A stretch of 64,000 nt of DNA from an uncultured Oscillibacter sp. (lineage in GTDB: Bacteria > Bacillota > Clostridia > Oscillospirales > Oscillospiraceae): positions 1 to 64,000 of the forward strand of contig NZ_CANTJS010000004.1 of the NCBI RefSeq assembly GCF_947654275.1, in the 5' to 3' direction. The notes below the pieces were generated by a model that did no database searches, was not told where the DNA came from, and was given only the letters and a program-made list of their open reading frames with translations. The position numbers and the translations under genes were made by a program. Below are positions 49,689 through 63,713 of the stretch, in pieces. Positions within the stretch are counted from its first letter, which is position 1. Each line of letters begins with the position of its first letter.

Positions 49689-50969
49689 TTATTCCTTCCC
49701 CTCATCCTCCGGCTCCTGGTCCTGATAGGCGTGGGTCAGCTGATCCCAGAGCACGCCCACATTCTCCATGCAGTTGAAGTAGATGGTGGTCAGCAGCTGG
49801 TTGGGGATGCCCAGCTCCTCTGCCATGCGGTTAATCCCGTCCCAATCGGCGTTTTCATAGCTCAGCACCAGCTTGTAGAGCATGCCGCAGCGGCCCTCGC
49901 CCCGCACCAGGCCGTTTTTCACCTCGTCGGCCACCGGCAGCTCCTCCAGAATCTCCTCCAGCGGCGCATCTACCAGATAGTTCAAGGTGGAGAACATGCC
50001 CATCAGATAGGCCTCGGACCGGGAGATGGGCATATTTTCGGCGTGCTTCATCAGCTCACTGCAAAAATGGGCCCGCATAAAGGATTTCTTCAGGAATTCC
50101 TCCGTGCCGGGGTCGTCGTTCTCGCCGCTGTTGGCGGCACTGAGGAGGTAAACCCACTGCCGCAGCTGCCCCAGGCCCAGGGTCATGATGGCCTGGTTGA
50201 TGGTGGTGGCCCGATGCCGCAGGGCGAAGAACACGGAGTTGGCCATTTTCAGCAGGTTATAGCTGAGACTGGCGTCCATGGAAATCAGCTGCTCAATCTC
50301 GTCCACATCCGGCTCGTCCCGGGTCAGCGCCACCATCAGGCGGAAAAAGTTGCTCTGGAGATAGGCGCTGCTGTGAACCTTGGTGGTAATCTTCTCGGCC
50401 ACATAGGGCCCCTCCACCGCGTCGGCGTTGAGAGAAATGGCCTTTTGGTACTGTTCTGCCGTCTCAATATGGGAGATGATGCACTTTTTGTTCATGCTGT
50501 GGGCCACTTCCACCGTGTTCCGGATGGTAACGTCCGTGGCGGTTTTTGCATTCAGCTTGATGTACTCAATGCTGTCCAGCAAAGCCAGATACCGGGGGGC
50601 GAACTGGAACTCGTTGACGGCAATCTTATACCCCTCCTTGGCATACTGGTCCACGAAGTGCATGGACAGGGGGTGGATAATCACGCTGTCGTCAATTTGA
50701 ATGACCAGCTCCGACTTGTCAAACAGCCTGGGCGTTTTCTTCATCAGCAGCATGGTGGTGAAGGTCATGAAGTTCAAGGATCCCTTCAGCGTCGTTGTGC
50801 TGTTCTGCGTCAAAAAGCTGTAGACCGTATCCGCAGAAGCGAACTCATTGGCCGGGCTGTTGCTGTCCGAGCTGAACGCCTGATTCTCGCCATGGTATAC
50901 GATCTCATATCCCAGGATTTTTCCAGAGGTATCCTTGATCGGCTGCCTTACAATATATTTGCTGCTCAT
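49689..50969 (-). CDS. Degenerate EAL plus HDOD signalling protein (CdgJ/YuxH-like)
   Basis: A 426-residue protein. The N-terminal domain (1-195) resembles an EAL domain beginning RQPIKDTSGKILGYEIVY. The catalytic DDFG is replaced by NEFQF and other metal-binding residues are missing, so phosphodiesterase activity is unlikely. The C-terminal HDOD domain (about 200-400) has LISMDASLSYNLLKMANS and INQAIMTLGLGQLRQWVYLL. Such proteins act as c-di-GMP or protein-interaction modules in motility control. GGGAGG precedes the ATG. It is the last gene of the fla/che operon, 17 bp after cheV. Confidence 0.87.
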   Translation of the reverse strand: MSSKYIVRQPIKDTSGKILGYEIVYHGENQAFSSDSNSPANEFASADTVYSFLTQNSTTTLKGSLNFMTFTTMLLMKKTPRLFDKSELVIQIDDSVIIHPLSMHFVDQYAKEGYKIAVNEFQFAPRYLALLDSIEYIKLNAKTATDVTIRNTVEVAHSMNKKCIISHIETAEQYQKAISLNADAVEGPYVAEKITTKVHSSAYLQSNFFRLMVALTRDEPDVDEIEQLISMDASLSYNLLKMANSVFFALRHRATTINQAIMTLGLGQLRQWVYLLSAANSGENDDPGTEEFLKKSFMRAHFCSELMKHAENMPISRSEAYLMGMFSTLNYLVDAPLEEILEELPVADEVKNGLVRGEGRCGMLYKLVLSYENADWDGINRMAEELGIPNQLLTTIYFNCMENVGVLWDQLTHAYQDQEPEDEGKE

Positions 50970-50985: not shown

Positions 50986-51912
50986 TTACTTGCTGTGCTT
51001 CTCTTCCAGCAGGTGATCGATCACCTGCACCAGATGTCCGATTTCCGGCTTGCTCATCTGCTCGTCGGCGCCCAGCTCCTTGCCCTTTTGGCGCATCTCC
51101 TCCGTAATCAGAGACGAGAAGATAATCAGCGGCAGATGCTTCAGCTCCTTGTCGTCCTTAATCAGCTTCGTCAGCCGGTGTCCGTCCATCTGAGGCATCT
51201 CGATATCCGTAATCACCAGGGACACGTAATCTTCCAGATTTTTCTTGCCCCTGACTTCATTCAGGTAGCTCCAGAGCGCCTGACCGTCGGGGAACATCTT
51301 GGTATTGACATAGCCGGATTTGTGGAGGGCCTCCTCAATCATCTTGCTGAGCAGCACGGAGTCCTCCGCCACCACAATGGCGGCGTCGCTCCGCTCCCGT
51401 TGGCCCAGACGCTCAATCTCAGACATCTGAATGGTGGTCTCCGGGGCAATCTCTGCCACAATCTTCTCAAAGTCCAGAATGGTCACCAGGTCTTCGCCGC
51501 ACTGGGCAATTCCGGTGGCGATGCCCTCGTTTCCTCCGGCCACGGTCTTGTCGGGCTTCTGGATGCTCTTCCAGGAAATGCGGCTGATGCCAACCACCGT
51601 GTGGACACGGAAGGCAATATTCATCTTGTTAAAATTGGTGACGATGAACAGGTCCTTGGGCTTTTTCTCCCCGGGCTCCGACAGCAGATACTGAGGCAGG
51701 TCCACCACTGTGATGACCTGATCCCGGGGCTTGAAAATCCCCTCCACCGCCGGATGGGCGTGAGGCATGGGCTTCACCGGCTGGGAAACCAGAATCTCCT
51801 TGACCTTCGCCACATTGATTCCATACAGGCTGTCATTGATGGTAAACTCCATGACCTCGATCTCATTCGTACCGGATTCCAGCAGGATGCCCCGCTTGTC
51901 CTCTGCCAGCAT
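50986..51912 (-). CDS. cheV: Chemotaxis coupling/adaptation protein CheV
   Basis: A 308-residue protein with a CheW-like domain (about 15-155) and a receiver domain (about 175-305). The phospho-acceptor is Asp236 in LVITDIEMPQMDG. CheV couples receptors to CheA and, when phosphorylated, contributes to adaptation. The ATG at 51912 lies ten bases after AAAGGAG; the in-frame GTG at 51921 abuts that site. It follows cheD by 30 bp. Confidence 0.95.
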   Translation of the reverse strand: MLAEDKRGILLESGTNEIEVMEFTINDSLYGINVAKVKEILVSQPVKPMPHAHPAVEGIFKPRDQVITVVDLPQYLLSEPGEKKPKDLFIVTNFNKMNIAFRVHTVVGISRISWKSIQKPDKTVAGGNEGIATGIAQCGEDLVTILDFEKIVAEIAPETTIQMSEIERLGQRERSDAAIVVAEDSVLLSKMIEEALHKSGYVNTKMFPDGQALWSYLNEVRGKKNLEDYVSLVITDIEMPQMDGHRLTKLIKDDKELKHLPLIIFSSLITEEMRQKGKELGADEQMSKPEIGHLVQVIDHLLEEKHSK

Positions 51913-51942
51913 ATTCCGCACTCTCCTTTCAAAGGTTGTCTC

Positions 51943-52428
51943 TTAAATAATCAGCTCTTTCCTGCCATAACAGCGGACACAGCCCAGGCCGGTGGCCGGG
52001 TCGAACAGCAGCGTCCGGGCCACGGAACCGCCCACGTCCTCCTTCAAGAGCTGGATGCCCTCTTTTTTCAGGTTCAAATGCACGCTTTCAATATTGCGCT
52101 GTCCGATATTGCCAAGGTTTCCGCCGCTGACCTCGAACATTTTGGCTCCGCCGGCAATTTTGGCGGTAATCCGTGCGCGGGAGGCGCCTTTCGACTCCAT
52201 CAGGCGCAGCGTTTCGCGGATTCCGGTATCCGCGTATTTAAATGTGTTTTTCCTTCCGGGCTCCATATTCAGCGGCAGCATAATGTGAACCATTGCAGCC
52301 AGTTTGATACGCTGATCGTACAGACAAATCCCAATGCAGGAGCCCAGGGCGTAGGTAATCAGCATGCCGCTGTCCTTCGCCATTTTCATGTCCGCAATTC
52401 CGATCGTGATTTTATTCTCCACTGTCAA
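51943..52428 (-). CDS. cheD: Chemoreceptor glutamine deamidase CheD
   Basis: A 161-residue CheD of standard length. The catalytic Cys is in YALGSCIGICLYD and the catalytic His in AAMVHIMLP; a Thr in the ITAKIAGGAKMF region completes the usual triad. It deamidates receptor glutamines and is regulated by binding CheC. The start is a TTG at 52428, seven bases after AAGGAAG, and the gene overlaps the end of cheC by 17 bp. The fixed cheC-cheD pair is typical of Gram-positive bacteria. Confidence 0.95.
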   Translation of the reverse strand: MTVENKITIGIADMKMAKDSGMLITYALGSCIGICLYDQRIKLAAMVHIMLPLNMEPGRKNTFKYADTGIRETLRLMESKGASRARITAKIAGGAKMFEVSGGNLGNIGQRNIESVHLNLKKEGIQLLKEDVGGSVARTLLFDPATGLGCVRCYGRKELII

Positions 52429-53041
52429 CGCCCAGCTTCCTTAGCAAAAAGTTCAATGAACGGATATCCGGCGACAGCAGCAGCCGGCAGGGAATCTGCT
52501 TTCCGCTGCACACAAAATCGCCGCCGATGGTCATAATATAGTCGGACTGGCCGCCGTACATCGCCATGGGCACCGCCATAATGGCCCCCTGCATATCCAC
52601 GGTAAAGGCCGGAACCGTCAGGTCGATGTCGATGCCCGCAAGGCCCGTGAGGGCATTGATGAAGGTGGAAATCATGATGTTGCCCACCTCCGTCAGGGCG
52701 GAGCGCTCCATATCCCGAATCTGCTCGTAGCTCTCCACCTGCTCGTTCAGCATGCTTTCCGCCACCAGCTTCACGAAGTCCAGCTGCTGAACGGACAGCA
52801 TAATGCCGCTGAGCTGATTGCTCATGCCCACCAGCACGCCGGCGGTAATTTCCTCCGGTCCGCCGATCCACTCAATGGCCTCGTTATAGCTCATGATGCG
52901 GACCTCCGGCTGCTGGATGCGCACCGGCTTTCCAATCAGGGAGGACAGCGAGGTGGCCGCGTTTCCGGTACCGATGCTGCCAATCTCCTTCAGGGTATCC
53001 AGCTCCAGAGAGGACAGCTCATTGTAGTTCTTCATACCCAT
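52412..53041 (-). CDS. cheC: CheY-P phosphatase CheC
   Basis: A 209-residue CheC with two phosphatase motifs: ExGSIGTGNAATSL (residues about 19-31) and ExGNIMISTFINAL (about 117-130). Each supplies the catalytic Glu and Asn of the D/E-x3-N signature. It dephosphorylates CheY-P and is stimulated by CheD. Starts are ATG at 53041 (GGGAGG upstream) or the nearby MKNY ATG at 53035. Confidence 0.95.
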   Translation of the reverse strand: MGMKNYNELSSLELDTLKEIGSIGTGNAATSLSSLIGKPVRIQQPEVRIMSYNEAIEWIGGPEEITAGVLVGMSNQLSGIMLSVQQLDFVKLVAESMLNEQVESYEQIRDMERSALTEVGNIMISTFINALTGLAGIDIDLTVPAFTVDMQGAIMAVPMAMYGGQSDYIMTIGGDFVCSGKQIPCRLLLSPDIRSLNFLLRKLGVDSGE

Positions 53042-60778: not shown

Positions 60779-61147
60779 TCAGGGATTCCCCAGAATCGTG
60801 CTGACAGTTTTTAACACGCGGTCCGGCTTGAAGGGCTTGACGATGAAGTCCTTGGCGCCGGAGCGCACCGCGTCCATAACCATGCTCTCCTGGCCCATGG
60901 CGGAGCACATGACCACGTTGGCCCCGCTGTCCTTGGCACGGATGGCCTTCAGCGCCTCCAGACCGTCCATGTTGGGCATGGTGATATCCATAATCACCAG
61001 GTCCGGCCCGATTTCGCTGAACTTCTCCACAGCGTCCGCGCCGTCCACGGCCTCATAGAGATCGGTGTAACCGTTTTTGCTCAGAGTGTCCTTGATCATT
61101 TTGCGCATGAACGCGGCGTCGTCCACCAGCAGGATTTTCTTACCCAT
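60779..61147 (-). CDS. cheY: Chemotaxis response regulator CheY
   Basis: A 122-residue single receiver domain. Asp9/Asp10 (LLVDDAAF) form the acidic pocket, Asp54 (VIMDITMPNMDG) is the phospho-acceptor, Ser83 and Lys105 (FIVKPFKP) complete the active site. When phosphorylated by CheA it binds FliM/FliY to set motor direction. AGAAGGAAGG precedes the ATG. It lies between fliY and fliO, as in Bacillus. Confidence 0.96.
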   Translation of the reverse strand: MGKKILLVDDAAFMRKMIKDTLSKNGYTDLYEAVDGADAVEKFSEIGPDLVIMDITMPNMDGLEALKAIRAKDSGANVVMCSAMGQESMVMDAVRSGAKDFIVKPFKPDRVLKTVSTILGNP

Positions 61148-61251: not shown

Positions 61252-62709
61252 TTATTTCTTCGAGACAATCTCAATCCCGGGCTTCTGCACAATCTCCGTG
61301 ATGCGGACGCCGAAGTTGTCGTCAATCACCACCACGTCGCCCCGGGCAATGCACTTGCCGTTGACAAACAGATCCACCTGGTCGCCGGCCAGCTTATCCA
61401 GCACCACCAGGGAACCCTTGGAGAATTCCAGAATATCCTGCACCTTTCTCTGGGTCCGGCCGATTTCCACGGTCACCTGGAGGGGAACCTCCATAATCAG
61501 ATCCAGGTTCTGGGCCTGCTCCTCTCCCAGCGCGTCCAGCCCTTCCATCTCCTTCAGATGCGCGGGCTTGGTGTTGATGACCTTGGGCTGCGGCGGGGCC
61601 GCCGGGGCCGGAGCGGGGGCCGGTGCGTTCTGTGCCATGGCTGTGGTCATGGCGGACATCATGGCCGCCATCATGGTCCCCAGGTCCGCCACCGTCGCGG
61701 GCTGAGCCGTGCCGGACTGGGGCGCAGGGGCCGGTGCGGGAGCCGGCGCAGGGGTGGGAGCCGGGGCCGGCGTGGGAGCAGGCGCAGGGGCGGGGGCGCT
61801 TTCCGTCATGCCGCCCATCAGCCGCTCGATTTCCTCCTGACTCAGCTTGCCGCCGCCGCCATCGGAAGCGGGGGCGGGAGCCGGAGCAGGCGCGCTCTCC
61901 GTCATGCCGCCCATCAGCCGTTCGATTTCCTCCTGGCTCAGCTTGCCGCCGCCATCGGAGGCTGGGGCGGGAGCCGGCGCGGGGGCGGGGGCGCTCTCCG
62001 TCATGCCGCCCATCAGCCGTTCGATTTCCTCCTGGCTCAGCTTGCCGCCGCCATCAGAGGCAGGGGCGGGCGCGGGTTCGGGGGCCGGGGCGGGCTCGGG
62101 GATCATGTCCTCGTCGCTCAGACCCAGTCCCTTCAGCAGCTCCTTGGCCAGGCGGACGCTCATGACGTTCATGAACTCGCTTTCCAGGGCCTCCTCAATC
62201 TTCAGGGAGAACTTCACAATTACAATGGTGTCCTCTCCCTGGGGCAGGCGGGTCTGCTTGAAGGTAGCCAGATCCTCCAGCTCGAAGGGCTCCGGCGTGG
62301 AGATATCCACCCGATAGCCCAGGAAATCGCTCATGGCAGTGGCCGCGGAGCCCATCATCTGGTTCATGACCTCGCAGGCGGCGCTGATGGTCAGCTCGTT
62401 CAGCTCAAATTCCTCGTCAGAGGTCTCCGTTCCCATCAGGATATCCACAATCACCCGGATATCACTGCGCTTGAGCAGCATGATGTTGCTGCCCGAGAGG
62501 CCCTCCACGTACCGGATTTCGATGCCCATGGCCGGTTCCAGAGAGCCCAGCACGAAGTCCGCCACATTGATGACCGAGACCTTCGGCGTCGTGATATCCA
62601 CTCTGTGATCCAGCATGTTGGACACCGCTGTCGCAGAGGAGCCAAGGCTGATATTCATCATTTCCCCGAGGGCGTCAATCTCCATCGGGTTGAATAGTAC
62701 TTTGTCCAT
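61252..62709 (-). CDS. fliY: Flagellar switch protein FliY (CheC-like phosphatase plus FliN) with triple peptide repeat
   Basis: A 485-residue protein. The CheC-like domain (1-200) has two phosphatase motifs (EIDALGEMMNISLGSSATAVSN and ELTISAACEVMNQMMGSAATAMSD). The FliN/SpoA domain is at about 400-485 (LDLIMEVPLQVTVEIGRTQRKVQDILEF). Between them, an Ala/Pro linker contains three copies of LSQEEIERLMGG at 224-235, 257-268 and 289-300. In Bacillus one such peptide sits at the FliM and FliY N-termini and binds CheY-P; here FliY lacks the N-terminal copy. AAGGAG lies 12 bases before the ATG at 62709; an upstream ATG (62745) overlaps fliM. Confidence 0.94.
   Translation of the reverse strand: MDKVLFNPMEIDALGEMMNISLGSSATAVSNMLDHRVDITTPKVSVINVADFVLGSLEPAMGIEIRYVEGLSGSNIMLLKRSDIRVIVDILMGTETSDEEFELNELTISAACEVMNQMMGSAATAMSDFLGYRVDISTPEPFELEDLATFKQTRLPQGEDTIVIVKFSLKIEEALESEFMNVMSVRLAKELLKGLGLSDEDMIPEPAPAPEPAPAPASDGGGKLSQEEIERLMGGMTESAPAPAPAPAPASDGGGKLSQEEIERLMGGMTESAPAPAPAPASDGGGGKLSQEEIERLMGGMTESAPAPAPAPTPAPAPTPAPAPAPAPAPQSGTAQPATVADLGTMMAAMMSAMTTAMAQNAPAPAPAPAAPPQPKVINTKPAHLKEMEGLDALGEEQAQNLDLIMEVPLQVTVEIGRTQRKVQDILEFSKGSLVVLDKLAGDQVDLFVNGKCIARGDVVVIDDNFGVRITEIVQKPGIEIVSKK
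61771..62058 (-). repeat. Three tandem ~96-bp units inside fliY
   Basis: Three in-frame units of 31-33 codons (residues 218-250, 251-281 and 282-313) have almost identical DNA: SDGGG(G)KLSQEEIERLMGGMTES plus a run of Ala-Pro pairs. The near identity suggests recent duplication or ongoing gene conversion. Confidence 0.9.
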
Positions 62710-62714
62710 TCTGT

Positions 62715-63713
62715 CTACTCGCTCCTTTGCTCTAGCTGATAACATACTTCATCTATTTTAACAGCCATATTCTTCTTATGGGTTCCCATGCGGCCCGTAA
62801 ACCAATGGTAACCGCCGATCTCCAAAAATACGGGGGATTCCTTGGAGTGCCCCAGGTCAATGACGTCTCCCACATTCAGGTGGAACACATCGCTGAGGGA
62901 AAGCTGCGTGCTTCCCAGCTCCGCCACAATCTCCAGGCTGGAATCCCGCAGACTGTCGAAAATCTCGTCGGATTTATCCTCCGCAGCCACGCGCCGCAGG
63001 GGGCTCTCCCGGCTGATCTCCGTGAAGACGTTGCTCAGCATCTCTCCCGGCAGACAGATGCTCATGCGGCCTGAGAGATTGGTGAACTGCAGCTTCAGGT
63101 CCACAATCACCACCGTCTCATCCAGCCCGATGATGGGGTTCAGCGTGGGATTGACCTCCGTCCGGGTGTACTCGAAATGGATGGGCGCGTAGCTCTCCCA
63201 GCTGGAGTCCATCACCTTGATGATGTCCTGCACCAGGTTGTCATAGAGCTTGAGCTCCAGGTCCGTATAGCTGTACTCCAGAAGGTTGTCGTCCACAGCG
63301 CCCTCGCCGCCCAGCATCCGGTCCATCATGCTCAGGGCTGTGCTGGTGGAGAGATAAATCGCCACAGGCGTGTCGTCTTCCTTCTCCTTGATGTGCACCT
63401 GCACCAGCGCCAGCACGTCGCCCTCCATCAGGGCGTTGGAAAACTCAAAGTACCGCTGTTCCTCGATGCTCTCCACCGTAATCTCGCAGTTCGCGCGGAG
63501 CCGCGCGTTCAGCCTCGAGCCAATGACACGGGAATAGTTGTCATAAATGCCGTTGAGCATCTTGATTCGGTCTTTGGTAAATTTCCGCGGACTGCTGAAG
63601 TCGTATTTCTGATATTTCTTTTCCGGCGCTGCAGATTTGCTCTCCTGGTTTTCCCCGCTTCGAACGGAGTTCAGCAAAGCGTCAATCTGAGCTTGTGATA
63701 ATACATCTGCCAT
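62715..63713 (-). CDS. fliM: Flagellar motor switch protein FliM
   Basis: A 332-residue FliM of normal length. The N-terminal CheY-binding peptide is VLSQAQIDALLNSV (4-17). The CheC-like middle domain is at about 45-230. The C-terminal FliN-like domain is at about 250-330 (ELGSTQLSLSDVFHLNVGDVIDLG). It sits in the C-ring between FliG and FliY/FliN and receives CheY-P. AGGGGG precedes the ATG. It stops just before fliY. Confidence 0.97.
   Translation of the reverse strand: MADVLSQAQIDALLNSVRSGENQESKSAAPEKKYQKYDFSSPRKFTKDRIKMLNGIYDNYSRVIGSRLNARLRANCEITVESIEEQRYFEFSNALMEGDVLALVQVHIKEKEDDTPVAIYLSTSTALSMMDRMLGGEGAVDDNLLEYSYTDLELKLYDNLVQDIIKVMDSSWESYAPIHFEYTRTEVNPTLNPIIGLDETVVIVDLKLQFTNLSGRMSICLPGEMLSNVFTEISRESPLRRVAAEDKSDEIFDSLRDSSLEIVAELGSTQLSLSDVFHLNVGDVIDLGHSKESPVFLEIGGYHWFTGRMGTHKKNMAVKIDEVCYQLEQRSE

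Follow-up and report, generated by a model that had tools for sequence, protein, structure and literature searches.

Repeated CheY-docking-like peptides in the interdomain linker of FliY from Oscillibacter and related Clostridia

What might a CheY-docking-like peptide do when it occurs three times inside a FliY protein and is missing from its N-terminus? This question is raised by the fliY gene of an uncultured Oscillibacter sp., which adjoins fliM and cheY in the window (the whole stretch of 64,000 nucleotides that was analysed). The N-terminal CheY-binding peptide of E. coli FliM is LSQAEIDALL (complex 1F4V). FliY is described as the CheY phosphatase of the B. subtilis motor (PMC340952), and the EIDALL sequence in the N-termini of FliM and FliY is given as a CheY-P binding site (PMC9126983). 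The fliY ORF of the window covers positions 61252-62745 of the minus strand, with an upstream in-frame ATG at 62745. The second Met (62709), which is preceded by a ribosome-binding-site-like AAAGGAG, is the likelier start, and the protein therefore begins with MDKVLFNPMEIDALGEM, without an N-terminal LSQxEIDALL. The NCBIfam model NF005995 (flagellar motor switch phosphatase FliY) matched with 322.5 bits (cut-off 218), the best stretch running from model position 28, which indicates that the part usually holding the CheY peptide is absent (the family profile does not depend on this customary peptide); a motif scan likewise found no docking-like peptide ahead of the CheC domain in this FliY. The absence of the peptide from the FliY N-terminus had been claimed in a preliminary description of the locus, together with a single copy in the adjacent FliM and three near-identical copies in an Ala/Pro linker of FliY. 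All three observations were confirmed: FliM carries VLSQAQIDALL at residues 4-14, and FliY contains LSQEEIERLMGG three times within positions 61771-62058. The near-identity at DNA level also held, as the 10-residue cores are the same in protein, and in DNA two copies match throughout whereas the third has 2 changes in 30 nucleotides. Tandem Repeats Finder reported the array at 61774-62092 with a period of 99 nucleotides, 3.3 copies and a score of 457.

Similar to the FliY proteins of B. subtilis and T. maritima, the window protein combines a CheC-like domain with two E..N sites, a linker and a FliN domain, and the Pfam domains CheC (PF04509) and FliMN_C (PF01052) were both found in the one protein (Table 1). 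It differs from these homologs in that the single N-terminal EIDALL-type peptide is missing and the linker holds peptides instead, of which related proteins have one to five, mostly of a Glu type. AlphaFold2 modelling on 50 aligned FliYs gave a mean pLDDT of 71.7, with high values in the CheC blocks, 37-48 in the first half of the FliN domain and values near 80 over most of the second; each repeat was predicted to form one short helix, the rest of the linker having low confidence. Among solved structures, T. maritima FliY 4hyn, which represents the CheC part, has the closest fold, followed by CheC. Both active-site pairs are present in the CheC-like domain (E28/N31 and E125/N128 in the 497-residue reading), and these residues are conserved in 112-113 of 113 array-bearing rows of this putative CheY-P phosphatase. 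The linker also includes, before the FliN domain, a Met-rich predicted helix (within LGTMMAAMMSAMTTAMAQ, positions 61639-61683, residues 355-369), and a similar Met-rich stretch was seen at loci L018 and L020.

Table 1. Positions of fliY, its parts and neighbouring chemotaxis and motility genes in the window.
Feature	Position	Strand	Remarks
fliY	61252..62709	minus	CheC-like putative phosphatase domain, linker with three docking-like peptides, FliN domain
CheC-like domain of FliY	62128..62688	minus	AlphaFold2 pLDDT mostly 90-96; nearest solved fold T. maritima FliY 4hyn
Ala/Pro-rich linker, about 196 residues, housing the array	61519..62106	minus	pLDDT blocks 44-69
Docking-like peptide copy 1, LSQEEIERLMGG	62005..62040	minus	residues 236-247 (497-residue reading); predicted short helix, low confidence
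Docking-like peptide copy 2, LSQEEIERLMGG	61906..61941	minus	residues 269-280 (497-residue reading); predicted short helix, low confidence
Docking-like peptide copy 3, LSQEEIERLMGG	61810..61845	minus	residues 301-312 (497-residue reading); predicted short helix, low confidence
FliN-like C-terminal domain of FliY	61288..61500	minus	PF01052
fliM	62715..63713	minus	
Single canonical peptide LSQAQIDALL at FliM N-terminus	63672..63701	minus	
cheY, presumed ligand, directly downstream of fliY	60779..61147	minus	nearest solved T. maritima CheY 1tmy/4iga
Stand-alone CheC, second presumed CheY-P phosphatase	52412..53041	minus	
CheD	51943..52428	minus	
CheV-like CheW-receiver fusion	50986..51921	minus	

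The linker peptides cannot be attributed to chance, since their motif score is 31.3 and none of 4,380 shuffled linkers scored above 7.6, the score matrix being partly trained on the linker copies themselves. A degenerate DNA pattern for [ST]Q[ADE]EIE matched three times in the 3.05-Mb, 93%-complete assembly, each time at one of these sites, so that no other carrier of the linker motif was found in this assembly by that pattern; the backwards control gave no matches. An assembly artefact was rejected as well, since a 99%-identical FliY from a separate assembly ('Oscillospiraceae bacterium isolate C15_39_OV_BP', L051) also has three copies and the complete genome of Oscillibacter valericigenes Sjm18-20 (L087) encodes a FliY with four. 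Two copies are present in the FliY linker of F. plautii ATCC 29863 (L084) and four in that of O. ruminantium GH1 (L078). TAL effector repeats are two-helix units of 33-35 residues which pack as a solenoid. Phmmer returned TAL matches with tiny E-values, which arise from the summing of many weak units (19-26 bits each, one alignment) of similar period, and a relationship was rejected as a coincidence of period: the FliY units consist of one short helix in a low-confidence linker, and their spacing among relatives ranges from 23 to 41 residues.

To place the array among related proteins, 248 FliY rows were read, 235 of them distinct, and two with masked N-termini were set aside. In the remaining 233 distinct FliYs, a non-random sample whose proportions are not population frequencies, the peptide is found at the N-terminus only (104), in the linker only (101) or in neither place (28, a class that includes the sub-threshold variants L037, L204 and L234), and never in both. 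The two placements are thus mutually exclusive in this sample, which suggests that the N-terminal and linker peptides share a role. The 101 array FliYs hold 251 copies in total, with one (10 genes), two (43), three (38), four (9) or five (1) per gene. The search for related loci used QEEIERLM among its six patterns and kept 80 of 524 loci, which favours array carriers; a further 60 loci (L131-L190) are the best-scoring matches of searches in the class (391 genomes, 149 matched) and the phylum (299 genomes, 248 matched), and 40 regions (L191-L230), mostly late-starting or long matches, were chosen by hand. Two family surveys are free of the QEEIERLM-pattern bias. In the window's own family 66 of 200 genomes gave some match and 22, including that of the window, possess a window-type FliY (E < 1e-86; next match 3e-46); linker copies were found in all 22, with L012 truncated at the edge of its contig. 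This survey gave no FliY match for G082 and G155, which belong to the window's genus, and flagella may be patchy in the genus. In the family of genome G441, 121 of 250 genomes matched and 30 matches were taken as loci; 16 of these encode a window-type FliY, as told by an E-value gap (5e-56 vs 2e-43) and the absence of an N-terminal copy. Linker copies over threshold are present in nine of the 16, including L238 with an atypical MSQAEMDAML, and lacking in seven, one of which has the variant LSPEEIAALV. The array is therefore dispensable in the G441 family and not essential to a FliY of this type.

A tree of 163 distinct rows, built from the CheC and FliN domains, grouped the linker carriers into a single clade (94 rows, SH-aLRT 99). 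Every third row of L131-L190 entered the tree and long branches were flagged; left out were identical domains, eight duplicate or truncated rows, rows with a low CheC score and the 16 window-type FliYs of the G441 family. Named members of the clade belong mostly to Oscillospiraceae, Oscillibacter, Lachnospiraceae and Butyricicoccus, with a few MAGs titled Paenibacillaceae or Clostridium. Copies are present in 93 of the 94 rows, the exception being L202, where they were lost; with this row and the seven copy-less proteins of the G441 family, universal retention of the array was rejected. Losses besides that of L202 were seen in several Lachnospiraceae. The nearest branches outside the clade (L024-L028, L197-L199 and L201) have neither form of the peptide, and the N-terminal carriers lie further out. 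This arrangement fits a loss of the N-terminal peptide before, or together with, the gain of linker peptides, the order being uncertain as long branches meet there.

Multiplication of the peptide is not confined to the linker clade. At L035:1229-2860 (G008) and L043:807-2465 (G176) an N-terminal copy is followed by three or four units of the MSPEAIAAMLD type before the CheC domain, and at L216:1013-2359 (G593) LSQEEIDALL is followed by two LSQEDIDAML units, again before the CheC domain. The same kind of peptide has been multiplied independently in these proteins, where the units come after a first N-terminal copy and precede the CheC domain, unlike the linker arrays. Since such N-terminal arrays sit in two other parts of the tree, multiplication must have happened more than once; they are undercounted here because the score matrix misses MSPEAIAAMLD-type units. 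In contrast, no second copy was found in any of 227 FliM-like ORFs carrying the peptide (duplicates included; peptide-bearing FliMs only), so that among the switch proteins read copy number varies only in FliY. A peptide in the N-termini of FliM and FliY is already known, whereas no description of internal or repeated docking copies in FliY was found in the open-access literature searched.

The preliminary description had proposed that copy number may vary between strains, and counting of the repeats showed that it is labile between close relatives. Among 129 pairs that share 90-99.9% domain identity, 32 differ in copy number, for example L083 with three copies and L091 with two at 99.3%; the main counts given above were recomputed on distinct sequences, and this pair count still holds duplicate genomes. 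Such lability is also what is expected if the Ala/Pro linker simply grows by replication slippage with the peptides as passengers or spacers, and the homogenisation of copies within a gene (nucleotide identity 0.878 within genes vs 0.702 between genes, as expected of recent duplication or conversion) and the loss of arrays in several Lachnospiraceae agree with neutral expansion. The peptides themselves do not look like passengers: the within-gene pN/pS of the copies is 0.107 (221 copy pairs, distinct sequences), Q3 is invariant and, with I6 and E7, belongs to the least changed positions, copies persist throughout almost the whole clade, and only four decayed copies were detected in array genes at a relaxed threshold, a number that somewhat underestimates decay because a search by motif score preferentially picks up intact copies. 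Judged from these substitution patterns the linker copies are under purifying selection, and we regard a purely neutral origin as very improbable.

Which partner the selected peptide serves can be approached from its signature. The linker consensus is [LM]SQ[EA]EIE[KR/A][LM][LM], which shares the core of the N-terminal FliY/FliM motif, with Q3 in 251 of 251 and I6 in 248 of 251 copies. As compared to the FliM N-terminal peptide, the copies have the LSQ, Ile6 and hydrophobic residues at 9-10 in common, whereas they are internal, repeated, carry Glu in place of Asp at position 7 and usually have a basic residue at position 8. Of the 251 linker copies, 246 have Glu at position 7, where 100 of 104 N-terminal FliY peptides have Asp or Asn; 181 have Lys or Arg at position 8, where the N-terminal peptides mostly have Ala (97 of 104). 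All 104 FliM matches to a strict pattern, in which D, E or N may stand at position 7, have Asp there, as do all 95 matches at array loci. The earlier identification of the repeats as LSQxEIDALL CheY-docking peptides thus stands for the core, while positions 7 and 8 set them apart from a plain FliM peptide. The pairing of position 7 must differ here, since the Lys119 position of E. coli CheY presumably aligns with Thr114 of the window CheY. In E. coli, position 7 corresponds to FliM Asp12, the salt bridge of which with CheY Lys119 was kept during 90% of a simulation (PMC7012829).

With Glu at 7 and a mostly basic position 8, the peptide may bind CheY with a different affinity or may have some other partner, such as the receiver domain of the CheV-like protein encoded in the window or an unknown chemotaxis or motor protein. 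The distinct signature and the uniform Asp of FliM at the same loci would agree with such a partner; the conserved Q3, I6 and hydrophobic positions 9-10, however, are those of the CheY-docking motif, and the mutual exclusion with the N-terminal peptide suggests a shared role, so that we consider a partner other than CheY improbable. It must also be noted that T. maritima FliY is reported to show no preference for activated CheY (PMC7355467), which counts against the reading of the peptides as CheY-P docking sites. On the side of CheY, covariation is weak. Residue 113 is Lys in 73 of 76 aligned sequences where cheY lies downstream of an array fliY, vs Glu in 58 of 60 N-type rows. The 13 rows without copies have Q113 (9), E113 (3) or K113 (1); E113 is found in L204, whose N-terminal peptide is a variant, and in the two rows with a masked N-terminus. 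A specificity of K113 for array genomes was rejected, as it was found in three of eight array genomes of the G441 family (eight of the nine were searched) and in none of the seven without copies. Since it occurs in only these three and is retained in the copy-less L202, K113 marks ancestry and not need. Within the linker clade, mutual information revealed no excess covariation of motif variants with CheY groove residues, and no groove position was clearly on top.

The position of the array relative to the two domains bears on what docking would achieve. Across 109 array rows, among which some duplicates remain, 22-75 residues (median 31) separate the CheC domain from the first copy, and 60-138 residues separate the last copy from the FliN domain. 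The peptide of 104 N-type rows is found 10-138 residues ahead of the CheC domain (median 22.5), so that in both layouts the dock is usually tethered near the phosphatase domain. Linker length differs as well, with a median of 192 residues in array rows vs 86.5 in N-type rows. A rule-of-thumb chain estimate for tethers of 31-95 residues gives an effective concentration at the domain of about 11 to 2 mM. The preliminary description had regarded the linker as a flexible antenna raising local CheY-P either for dephosphorylation or for steeper switching. The former is favoured by the location of the array near the CheC domain and not the FliN domain, and by the retained E..N sites. Steeper switching does not follow: by our reasoning CheY has one groove, and independent sites then add capacity and local concentration, not cooperativity; for a steeper response the sites would have to be coupled, which an array alone does not bring about.

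A main function in switching would mean that the peptides concentrate CheY-P at the base of the C-ring and hand it to second sites of the FliM/FliN type, with copy number setting bias or sensitivity. Two-step binding of CheY is established, and the FliM peptide is described as a tether which possibly delivers CheY to second sites (PMC9126983, PMC7355467). The only PF01052 matches in the 93%-complete assembly are those of FliY and FliM; as the only FliN-type protein found besides FliM, FliY should be abundant in the C-ring, which would suit such a function. Against it stand the distance of the array from the FliN domain as compared to the adjoining CheC domain and the expectation that independent sites give no steeper response, and a switching function appears to us possible but rather unlikely. 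In two other genomes (G093, L046 and G162, L045) a FliN-type domain was found in separate short ORFs of 158 and 164 amino acids without a CheC domain, unlike the FliY fusion. The peptides are also tethered to both domains of FliY itself and might bind these in an autoinhibitory manner; the low confidence of the repeat region in the model speaks weakly against this, and we consider autoinhibition extremely improbable.

For the reading that we put forward, in which the linker peptides are relocated and multiplied CheY docking sites feeding the adjacent CheC phosphatase domain, we see about an even chance. In such a scheme a docking site of the FliM/FliY type would have been lost from the FliY N-terminus and re-established beyond the CheC domain in one lineage, its signature changing to [LM]SQ[EA]EIE[KR][LM][LM], before it was multiplied through in-frame duplications of a roughly 30-residue unit. 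Each peptide, predicted to be a short helix, would sit on a flexible Ala/Pro tether and could hold one CheY-P near the two CheC active sites, which would make FliY a phosphatase on the rotor with additional capacity to capture CheY-P. With every further copy more CheY-P could be held and hydrolysed per FliY, copy number tuning capacity and not cooperativity. Binding of CheY or CheY-P, its delivery to the CheC sites, the phosphatase activity of this FliY and any effect on signalling are predictions from sequence. Together the data suggest a motor with extra signal-binding capacity in gut Clostridia. A bolder and doubtful extension is that the rotor serves as a tunable store and sink of CheY-P, with mostly two to five extra peptides per FliY, hundreds of CheC-coupled sites and a capacity set by repeat number. 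Should FliY occupy the three FliN positions that accompany each FliM in a 34-fold ring, a motor might contain about 100 FliY molecules; CheY-P capacity would in this view be a readily evolvable trait. Whatever the function, these proteins show that a docking-like peptide can change its place in a switch protein and become multiplied, on more than one occasion, in common gut bacteria, and they provide a natural series of zero to five docking peptides with which one may ask whether CheY-P docking at the C-ring serves switching or dephosphorylation.

The surrounding genes place FliY in a pathway which resembles that of B. subtilis, as CheC, CheD and a CheV-like protein are encoded nearby. Beside cheV, cheD and cheC, an EAL and HDOD protein is encoded at 49689-50969 on the minus strand, a possible link between signalling of the cyclic-di-GMP type and motility. 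Gene order around cheY varies: in the 15 genomes of the G441 family that were searched (L274-L288 with L231-L246) the cheY match lies about 400-600 bases upstream of fliY on the same strand, whereas in the window it is found downstream.
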